The notes under the pieces were generated by a model. It made no database searches, was not told the origin of the DNA, and was given only the letters and a program-made list of their open reading frames with translations. Shown here in pieces: positions 1,367 through 47,190 of a DNA stretch of 47,190 nucleotides. Positions within the stretch are counted from its first letter, which is position 1. Each line of letters starts with the position of its first letter. The translations under genes and the position numbers were made by a program. Source of the DNA: Planctomycetaceae bacterium (GTDB taxonomy: Bacteria; Planctomycetota; Planctomycetia; Planctomycetales; Planctomycetaceae); NCBI GenBank assembly GCA_020426345.1, contig JAGQQE010000009.1:1-47190 (forward strand). Direction: 5' to 3'.

Positions 1367-2380
1367 ATGATACAAGCTGTGGCGACATCAGAATTGCAGG
1401 ACGGCGTAAGCAGTAAGCTCAGTGGGCTGGTGAATTCAAACTGCCCCTTATGCAATTCTCCGAAATCAAGGTTCGAAACAACGATTGCCACTTACCAGCT
1501 CGACAAATGCGAGAACTGTGACTTTGTTTTCATGAATCCACGATGCACTCCGGAGCACCTCGAGGAAATCTACACTGTTCGTGATGAGGAAGAGCTAGTC
1601 GAGCTCTATGCGAAAATTGCTTCGGCCAGTGTGATCGCTGAATATCAGCAAAAACTTGAGAGAATTGAAGCACTGGTGCCGAACAAAGGCCGTCTTCTGG
1701 ATTTCGCCTGTGCTGCGGGGTACTTCTTTGAACAAGCTCAGAATCGAGGGTGGGATGCCCATGGTTGTGATATCGGCCAGTGGGCCAATCGAGCAGCAAA
1801 GGAACGCGGACTGAAAAATCTGCACGTTGGTATGCTGGATGAAATCGGGTTTGAGCCAGAGTCCTTCGATGTCATCTATGCGGCACAAGTATTTGAACAC
1901 CTTCTTTCGCCGAAGGTCGATCTCGCAAACCTCCTTCGCCTGCTGAAACCCGGTGGGCTTCTTTACATCGATGTCCCGAACTACCAGACACTGCCAATCA
2001 TGCTTGGCAGGGACGACTTTATGCTGAACGAACCCCCGCAGCATATCAATTACTTCACACCGTCGACGCTCAGGCAAATGCTGCAAGACGTCGGCATGGA
2101 GAAAATCAAGCTGACATCCGATGGAGGACTAAAGTGGGAGAACCTTCTGGGGCGACCAATCACCAGCGACATCGCCAGTGCCTATGGCCTTGGGGAGGAT
2201 TCGCAGGAGGATCGAAAGCATGGATCTCCCGGGGACGACGCAAACGTTGTCTCAACTCGCCCCGGCCTGAAACAGTCACTCAAATCGATGGTCAAAGCCA
2301 CACTAATCGAACCAGTGTTTTACAATCGATTCCGAGTTGGGATGAACCTGGCCGCCTATTCTTTTAAGCCAGTGAAGTAG
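1367..2380 (+). CDS. Class I SAM-dependent methyltransferase with N-terminal zinc ribbon
   Basis: A 337-residue protein. Four cysteines (C26, C29, C48, C51) in the pattern CPLC...CENC form a probable zinc ribbon, followed by FMNPRCTPEHLEEIY. A Methyltransf_23-like Rossmann domain follows, with SAM motif I LLDFACAAGYFFEQA, the acidic strand end HGCDIG, then FDVIYAAQVFEHL and LKPGGLLYIDVPNY. This layout is common in methyltransferases acting on sugars or other small metabolites in cell-surface or secondary metabolism, but the substrate cannot be read here. ATG 1367 is chosen because GGAAG sits about nine bases upstream and the zinc ribbon begins soon after; ATG 1256 would add 37 non-conserved residues. 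The stop is followed by a palindromic element that could act as its terminator. Confidence 0.85.
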   Translation: MIQAVATSELQDGVSSKLSGLVNSNCPLCNSPKSRFETTIATYQLDKCENCDFVFMNPRCTPEHLEEIYTVRDEEELVELYAKIASASVIAEYQQKLERIEALVPNKGRLLDFACAAGYFFEQAQNRGWDAHGCDIGQWANRAAKERGLKNLHVGMLDEIGFEPESFDVIYAAQVFEHLLSPKVDLANLLRLLKPGGLLYIDVPNYQTLPIMLGRDDFMLNEPPQHINYFTPSTLRQMLQDVGMEKIKLTSDGGLKWENLLGRPITSDIASAYGLGEDSQEDRKHGSPGDDANVVSTRPGLKQSLKSMVKATLIEPVFYNRFRVGMNLAAYSFKPVK

Positions 2381-2393
2381 AGGCAGGGACTAA

Positions 2394-2499
2394 CCTAACC
2401 TAACTGTCCGTTGAAGAATCGGGACAGGCACGCAGGACGACTGGAAACCATCGTGTTTTCAGGCCTCCTGCTCGAACAAGTCCCGTTTTTCCACAGGCT
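2394..2499. repeat. Palindromic dispersed repeat element, full copy
   Basis: A roughly 100-base imperfect inverted repeat starts in CTAACC-type repeats. Stems pair from outside inward: CTGT 2404-2407 with ACAG 2493-2496; CGGGAC 2420-2425 with GTCCCG 2480-2485; GCAGGA 2432-2437 with TCCTGC 2466-2471; CTGGAAA 2441-2447 with TTTTCAG 2456-2462 (one G-U). Its first 46 bases (2394-2439) match 47145-47190 at 42 positions. The CGGGAC/GTCCCG stem is followed by five Ts (2486-2490), so the element could also terminate the methyltransferase transcript. A REP-like or MITE-like identity is inferred; no transposase is nearby. Confidence 0.7.
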
Positions 2500-2525
2500 G
2501 CCAAACCTGCATTCCTGGTGCAGAC

Positions 2526-2560
2526 GATCAGCGCACAGGCAACATGCCTGTTCGCTGATC
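2526..2560 (-). terminator. Stem-loop overlapping the argC stop codon
   Basis: Arms 2526-2540 and 2546-2560 pair at 14 of 15 positions around the loop AACAT. The argC stop (TGA, minus strand, 2528-2530) lies inside the distal arm, so the hairpin is partly coding. No T-run follows on the argC strand, so it is not a textbook intrinsic terminator. It may stabilise the 3' end or help stop the convergent transcripts. Confidence 0.5.
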
Positions 2561-3550
2561 CAGCCCCAGCATCAAGTTCATATTCTGAACGGCAACTCCG
2601 CTCGCACCTTTGATCAGATTATCCAGTGCAGAAAAGACGACCAGCTGTTCACGATTCATGCGCACAGTGATATCGCAAAAGTTCGTGTGCGCCACATCTT
2701 TTGTGGCCGGAATATGATCTACGATGCGAATGAAAGGCTGCCCCTGGTAGAATGATCGGTACACTTTCAGCAGTTCCTCTACGCTCATCGACGTCCTGAG
2801 TTTTGGATAAACAGAACACAGAATTCCGCGATCCATCGGCATCAAGTGAGGATTGAAAGCGACATTCACGTTGTCGCCTCCTCCCACGTCCGTCAAGACC
2901 TGCTCAATTTCCGGCGTGTGTCGATGAGTCCCAATCCCATAGGCCGTTACAGACTCGTTGCATTCAGAAAACAGGTTGCCCAGCTTTGGATTTCGACCTG
3001 CTCCGCTCACCCCGCTTTTTGCATCGATAATAATGCCCGTTGGTTCGATCAGTTTTGCGGCCAGCAACGGTGCAAGTGCCAGAATTGACGTGCTTGTGTA
3101 ACAGCCGGGGTTGGCAACCAGATCAGCAGAAGGAATTTTGTCTTTATAGATCTCGGGCAGACCGTAGACAGTCGTGGCAAGCCGTGTCGGATCTGTATGC
3201 ACGTGCCCGTACCATTGTTCATAAACTCCAGGATCGGTGAGTCGATAATCAGCACTCAGGTCCACGACTCGGCACCCGGCATCCAGCAACTGCGGAACGG
3301 CTTCCATACTGGCGGTATGTGGCAATGCACAGAACGCAATGTCACACCGCTGCCCCGCTTCGTCTGCACTCAGGTTCTCGCAGTTCACGTCCAGCAGGCC
3401 GGTCAGGGAGGGATGAATGCTGGCAATCGACGGCCTTCCCTCCTGACGTGTCGTCAGAGCCGTCACTTCGACCTCCGGATGCCTCACCAGGATCTTCAGA
3501 AGTTCCAGCGCTGTATATCCCGTCGCTCCCAGTATTGCTACGCGTGTCAT
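2528..3550 (-). CDS. argC: N-acetyl-gamma-glutamyl-phosphate reductase
   Basis: ArgC performs the NADPH-dependent reduction of N-acetylglutamyl phosphate to the semialdehyde, the third step of arginine synthesis, in the cytoplasm. The 340 residues include the N-terminal nucleotide-binding start [15 protein letters not shown], the block FCALPHTAS, and the active-site motif [10 protein letters not shown] with nucleophile Cys150. The length is typical of the family. ATG 3550 gives the usual short N-terminus ([11 protein letters not shown]); an upstream in-frame start at 3583 would add 11 residues with no conserved character. No other arg gene is adjacent, so it is probably transcribed alone. It converges with the methyltransferase gene, and its last codons form half of a strong hairpin. 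Confidence 0.95.
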
Positions 3551-47144: not shown

Positions 47145-47190
47145 CCTAACCTAACTGTCCGTTGAAGAATGGGGACATGCACGGTGGACG
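47145..47190. repeat. Palindromic dispersed repeat element, left half (cut by window end)
   Basis: Bases 47145-47190 match 2394-2439 at 42 of 46 positions without gaps, including 26 identical bases from 47145 to 47170. As in the first copy, the element begins in CTAACC-type repeats and lies shortly (24 bases) after a rightward stop codon. The inverted right half would lie outside the window. Confidence 0.85.

Follow-up and report, generated by a model that had tools for sequence, protein, structure and literature searches.

The 97-bp palindromic repeat found in the window (the whole stretch of DNA analysed, 47,190 bases, which is the entire contig C791 of the 6.83-Mb host genome, G000, assembled in 791 contigs) is very probably a MITE, a gene-less element whose 16-bp terminal repeats were used by an IS1182-like transposase to move it; we place the probability of this reading at roughly 0.88. 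Terminal repeats, copy number, target duplications, ends matching those of insertion sequences (IS) and an intergenic placement were all observed directly, and an IS1182-like transposase is the putative mover judging from the sequence of the ends. The repeat has the characters of a MITE: it is short (97 bp) with inverted ends, gives at least 150 matches in the genome, is accompanied by a target duplication, lacks a coding frame and shares its ends with an IS. A preliminary description had assigned it to the REP/BIME or MITE class, and the terminal repeats, the target duplications and the match with IS ends support the second assignment and not the first.

Extent and structure of the repeat

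Comparison of positions 2394-2439 with 47145-47190 confirmed the identity reported earlier at 42 of 46 bases, the best value in five shuffled windows being 25, and the core motif occurred twice in the window against a mean of 0.00 in 100 shuffles. Alignment of 119 near-full-length copies placed the exact limits of the element at 2404-2500 (97 nt), so that the repeat first drawn at 2394-2499 is real while its positions 2394-2403 belong to the flank. The CTAA/C units noted as a CTAACC-type start are likewise present, at 2390-2403, and lie outside the element. Of the second copy just element positions 1-36 are present, the contig being cut off within the repeat; its inverted half, whose lack was named in the preliminary description as a second refuting case, would lie beyond the assembled sequence. 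Both copies lie 3' of rightward open reading frames, as had been stated, with stops at 2380 and 47121. The features of the window are as follows.

2404..2500, plus strand: complete copy of the 97-bp palindromic non-autonomous transposon, limits from the alignment of 119 near-full-length copies
2404..2419, plus strand: left terminal inverted repeat, consensus CTGTCCGTTGAAAAAC
2485..2500, minus strand: right terminal inverted repeat, consensus read inward CAGCCTGTTGAAAAAC, as in IS1182-like ends
2390..2403, no strand: left ladder of three YTAR units with C spacers (CTAA C CTAA C CTAA)
2501..2504, no strand: right flanking 4-mer CCAA, identical to the left CTAA at 3 of 4 bases, probably a decayed target duplication
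47155..47190, plus strand: second copy, element positions 1-36, cut by the contig end
47146..47154, no strand: left ladder of the second copy, CTAA C CTAA, by direct reading

The palindromic character of the complete copy was borne out: it folded as RNA with z = -2.7 (0 of 200 shuffles as good); folded as DNA it gave z = -1.8 (9 of 200). A separate 16-nt inverted repeat with a 3-nt loop (2526-2560), at the 3' end of an argC-like gene, adjoins the element.

Copy number, divergence and distribution

Searches of the host genome returned at least 44 matches with a 121-base query (best 40 of 230 candidates scored) and at least 150 matches, all with E 1.8e-8 or better, with a covariance model built on 29 copies (best 150 of 3,836 candidates). 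The many copies anticipated in the preliminary description were thus recovered, and its refuting case, that just two matches exist genome-wide, was contradicted. A 438-kb sample, made up of the window plus 391 kb from seven further long contigs, contained 23 copies or fragments; scaling would give about 360 for the genome, an extrapolation biased upward since these contigs were preselected as holding at least one copy. Reading of 134 loci and the window gave 140 unique copies, which lie on 103 contigs and include 119 of nearly full length. This set was drawn mostly from the best-scoring matches and so favours well-kept copies, about a dozen of the at least 150 matches being left out. Integron attC sites, considered on account of the GTTAR-like edges, were set aside, the copies being scattered over those 103 contigs.

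Identity to the consensus averaged 0.911 (range 0.783-0.979; 135 copies with enough aligned sequence), and the most similar pair among 129 copies compared was 97.9% identical; these levels suggest an old burst of transposition and no recent activity. Indels of 1, 2 and 4 nt between copies indicated that no coding frame is conserved.

Among 119 genomes searched, host included, with at most the seven best candidates scored per genome, the spread was patchy: matches were found in the host, in G008 (from another genus of its family) and in G059 (ends only), and in none of the three genomes of the host's own genus. G008 carried a full-length relative, CTAA|CAGCCCGTTGAAAAAC...GTTTTTCAACAGGCTG|CTAA, with ends CAGCCCGTTGAAAAAC / CAGCCTGTTGAAAAAC. 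A sister repeat in G059 (loci L272-L301), alike in its 97-bp length and its ends but with a different interior, gave at least 45 matches (best 40 of 114 candidates), some of them being both strands of one palindrome.

Two elements in tandem on contig C388 (L028, about 1501-1700) were separated by TTAG alone, as if one copy had inserted into the target duplication of the other. Contigs C160, C187, C485 and C490 started inside an element match, C340, C304 and C225 had one within 25 nt of their start, C263 and C332 ended inside one and C262 ended within 14 nt of one. The element therefore probably contributes to the fragmentation of the assembly, with at least nine contigs besides the window starting or ending in it or within 25 nt of it.

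Target site and target duplication

Analysis of the sequences flanking the 119 near-full-length copies revealed that the left and right 4-mers were identical in 26 copies (shuffled mean 9.1, maximum 19 in 5000) and at least 3/4 alike in 72 (shuffled mean 37.3, maximum 53), leaving 93 without an identical target duplication. The consensus YTAR, comprising CTAA, CTAG, TTAA and TTAG, occurred at -4 in 60 of the 119 copies and at +1 in 54, against a background of 0.3%. Flanks of the G059 sister repeat had TA in the middle in 10 of 17 rows on the left and 11 of 17 on the right, and in 9 of 17 they agreed at three or more of the four bases, a number reached in 15 of 5000 shuffles (mean 3.7); these are 17 of 20 rows, three with unclear ends having been dropped, one of which has TTAG near both ends. 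A search for empty sites in 3.7-4.0-kb loci around argC of four relatives did not find the neighbouring methyltransferase gene in those loci and yielded no empty site.

The pattern is best explained by cut-and-paste insertion into a 4-bp YTAR, which is duplicated in the process, probably by an IS1182-like transposase recognising the 16-bp terminal repeats.

Candidate partner transposases

Comparison of the element with two IS1182-like end forms showed that the right end equals one of the two forms at 16 of 16 bases, the left end agreeing at 13-14 of 16. The host genome carried one IS1182-like transposase gene, split into two open reading frames and flanked on both sides by TTAG, whose ends differ from those of the element at 1-4 of 16 bases; an intact matching transposase was not found in the host genome. 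A family search of relatives together with a protein search of named genomes yielded 39 transposase loci; the named relatives of the transposase suggest that the host belongs to the Planctomycetota. Six of these (L170, L171, L175, L176, L178 and L179) had an end with no more than one mismatch to CAGCCTGTTGAAAAAC, and 25, some of them cut by contig ends, had nothing within three mismatches of it, which suggests that the matching ends belong to a subgroup of IS1182-like elements and not to the whole family. L179 was the sole 16/16 match to the right end of the element in a relative, and there the query match does not lie between the two ends of the pair.

Complete end pairs surrounded the transposase gene in L171 (1,506 bp), L176 (1,458 bp), L177 (1,516 bp) and L178 (1,460 bp), so that IS1182-like elements with matching ends span 1.46-1.52 kb. 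Their YTAR flanks were identical in L171 (TTAG/TTAG) and L176 (CTAG/CTAG) and 3/4 alike in L177 and L178. The open proteins of L176, L171 and L177 contained DUF772 and DDE domains and had NF033551 IS1182 as their top-scoring family, at 171-214 bits; since this is below the NCBIfam cut-off of 270, the partner is called IS1182-like. Fragments of an IS1380-type transposase, in two overlapping open reading frames, were present at L103 (G000:C312).

Placement relative to genes and stop codons

Gene context was taken from our own codon-model gene calls and not from a standard gene finder. The 140 copies comprised 58 in tandem gaps, 31 in convergent and 16 in divergent gaps; a further 3 overlapped a called gene, and 32 lay at the edges of contigs. 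The median distance to a stop was 31.5 nt against 77 nt for random placement, and in the tandem gaps 45 of 58 copies were nearer to the upstream stop than to the downstream start, in agreement with the earlier expectation that copies lie mostly 3' of genes. Start-side distances of 20 nt or less made up 1% (random placement, 9%), a scarcity likely to reflect loss of insertions in promoters. Orientation was the same as that of the genes in 25 copies and opposite in 33.

The neighbouring stop was exactly 0, 5 or 10 nt away in 35 of the 105 placed copies (23, 10 and 2, respectively, of 120 stop-side distances), and at these distances it coincided with either the flanking 4-mer or one of the outer units of the ladder, mostly because YTAR contains TAA/TAG. 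For the same reason stop codons make up many of the acceptable sites: among non-coding YTAR sites they were 54 of 247 where gaps of the 438-kb sample lack the element, and 39 of 324 in mixed loci. Stop-sited copies were not enriched in convergent gaps (12 of 31 copies; 12 of 22 available sites) and were absent, like the sites, from divergent gaps (0 of 16; 0 of 49), while tandem gaps gave 23 of 58 copies against 42 of 176 sites (odds ratio 2.1, p = 0.03). Active targeting of stop codons was rejected on these figures, which show at most a mild excess over the available non-coding YTAR sites; the placement at stop codons is mostly as insertion into such sites would produce. The target duplication would leave the stop codon in place, and the overall distribution may be accounted for by the target sequence together with the loss of harmful insertions.

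A five-base ladder at the edges

The YTAR motif recurred outward in steps of five bases. To the left, -4, -9 and -14 carried it in 60, 14 and 3 of the 119 copies, and to the right +1, +6 and +11 in 54, 30 and 8. A second unit 5 nt further out was present in 41 copies, whether or not the first was intact, and 27 copies had unbroken ladders of at least two units. On the left the base separating the second unit from the first was C in 14 of 14 cases, and on the right it was G in 28 of 30; these are the first and last bases of the element itself. Within a locus the units were mostly identical. In 13 of the 27 strict ladder copies at least one YTAR unit of the left side was also present on the right; units of other sequence, TGAA at C620 for example, did not enter this count. 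Copies with the left 4-mer CTCA or CTGA tended to have the right edge CTAAGCTAA or nearly so, and were not closely related to one another (C109:14122, C109:33214, C231:273, C44:23178, C190:965 and C768:20249 of G000).

A search for ladders adjoining CAGCC-type ends, the only ends within reach of the pattern used, covered 397 genomes including the host and found five places in the host, all with C as separator, and one place in each of 3 of the 396 other genomes, with separators G, T and G; the reversed control pattern occurred at one place, in a genome other than the host. No second unit was present in the 17 rows of the G059 sister repeat examined. Orphan ladders were few in the 438-kb sample, with four overlapping matches at three places, of which the first adjoined a degenerate left end, the second lay where a contig ends and the third stood free. 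The last, a CTAAGCTAA ladder at G000:C44:20707 (L271, about 707) with no recognisable element, is possibly a footprint.

Several origins were considered. Pre-existing YTAR arrays used as targets were rejected, since the separators within a single array would be alike left and right of the element, and they are C on the left and G on the right; the 2 of 30 right-hand separators that are C could be cases of this kind. An excision footprint followed by random re-insertion was rejected in its simple form, which would give both bases on both sides. Inheritance of the ladder by descent was rejected because copies sharing units were no more alike than random ones, some groups being less alike, and growth of the ladder with age because identity to the consensus was 0.913 with and 0.911 without a ladder.

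Replication slippage at the base of the hairpin, in which case the ladder would not be a transposase product, is a possible though doubtful origin; it concerns the ladder only and is compatible with the MITE reading of the element. It is suggested by the short tandem repeats adjoining a palindrome and by the near-uniform units of each locus. It does not readily explain a unit of exactly the target plus one terminal base at both ends with opposite bases, nor why ladders are no commoner in more diverged copies and are absent from the 17 sister repeats of G059.

Our preferred reading, put forward as an unproven proposal, is that the target together with one terminal base was duplicated locally, time after time, while transposase was active. 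In a more specific and rather unlikely scheme, an IS1182-like transposase would have a side reaction, so far unreported, in which a single end of an inserted element is cut with a stagger and filled in. The 5-nt staggered cut would start at the outer margin of the YTAR duplication and reach one nucleotide into the element, and fill-in and rejoining would add the target and the terminal base while the element stays put. Ladder-bearing ends could later be mobilised as longer ends; this idea draws on four loci (C764, C42, C620 and C498) at which the outermost right unit, and not the inner one, equals the left 4-mer.

Terminator function and REP/BIME origin

The suggestion that the repeat doubles as a terminator found little support, and it appears improbable that selection maintains it as a functional terminator acting in both directions or as an RNA structure at 3' ends. 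Such a role would fit the excess of convergent (31) over divergent (16) placements, the short distance to stops (31.5 against 77 nt), a consensus with an A-tract, a GC stem and a T-tract, and the conservation of the stem GTCCC (0.956), the A-tract (0.93) and the two ends (0.93 and 0.92) relative to the interior (0.90). The T-tract itself is conserved at 0.887, below the mean of 0.912, however, and a terminator scan of window positions 2200-2800, which covers the window copy only, gave 0 sites (shuffles mean 0.7). Stem and both tracts were kept together in 57 of 129 copies, and no better in convergent gaps (10 of 30) than in tandem (27 of 54) or divergent ones (5 of 15); the orientation to genes was mixed, as given above.

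The consensus has a good fold. Compensatory stem changes, which the preliminary description expected, remained at shuffle level for the RNA fold (4143 of 4585 cells paired against 4136, a count reached by 41 of 300 shuffles; 19 double changes against 15.7, reached by 66 of 300) and were slightly above it for the DNA fold (4148 against 4137, 9 of 300; double changes 21 against 15.9, 26 of 300), an excess that sequence relatedness alone might give. Covariation was detected in 1 of 18 pairs in the 29-copy set, and an Rfam search of window positions 2200-2700 gave three matches with E<=1, none of which reached the gathering score. The inverted ends of a transposon are the best explanation of the palindrome.

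A REP/REPIN/BIME-type repeat spread by a Y1 (RAYT) transposase is highly improbable: the element is palindromic, intergenic and of high copy number and Y1 genes exist in G000, G008 and G059, but its terminal repeats and 4-bp duplications are unlike REP/BIME, its alignment consensus lacks a GTAG or CGTC tag at the ends and measures 97 bp against 20-40 bp in the definition given in PMC3733652, and none of the 16 Y1 neighbourhoods of the three genomes holds a copy (four have isolated short motif matches only). A Y1 transposase, named in the preliminary description as one candidate, is not supported, and the ends match those of IS1182-like DDE elements.

Implications

A target that contains a stop codon, and whose duplication also duplicates the stop, would offer landing sites at gene ends that leave the genes intact, and the build-up of palindromes 3' of genes can be explained without a terminator function. 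The ladder, if made by a transposase, would be a fossil record of cleavage geometry that could be tested in vitro; no account of such a ladder, whether as repeated target duplication or in connection with insertion at stop codons, was found in the literature searched.

Comparison with known systems

The element resembles the bacterial MITEs in being short and gene-less, with terminal inverted repeats, target duplications, many intergenic copies and ends shared with an IS. It differs from them in its IS1182-like ends with YTAR targets, its frequent stop-codon sites and its 5-nt edge ladders.

Within the IS1182 family, ISPse1 is entered in a table of PMC3281130 as IS1182, 1653, 16/16, 4, which we take as length, inverted repeats and direct repeat. 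By this table row the element agrees with the family in end length and 4-bp duplication, and its likely partner IS encodes a DUF772 and DDE transposase; the partner transposases fall below the NCBIfam cut-off and the element itself is gene-less. IS1272, placed in the same broad family, shows in some copies a 25-bp tandem duplication of the left end, and replaces inverted repeats without target duplication, according to PMC5678879; its left-end duplication is a distant parallel to the ladder, which here accompanies a 4-bp duplication and has a 5-bp unit. IS711 of Brucella shares the YTAR consensus, but appears from PMC2266754 to duplicate TA only. REP/BIME sequences with their RAYT, described in PMC3733652 as 20-40 bp long with GTAG or CGTC tags, are likewise palindromic, extragenic and of high copy number, while the present element has 97 bp, DDE-type ends and 4-bp duplications.
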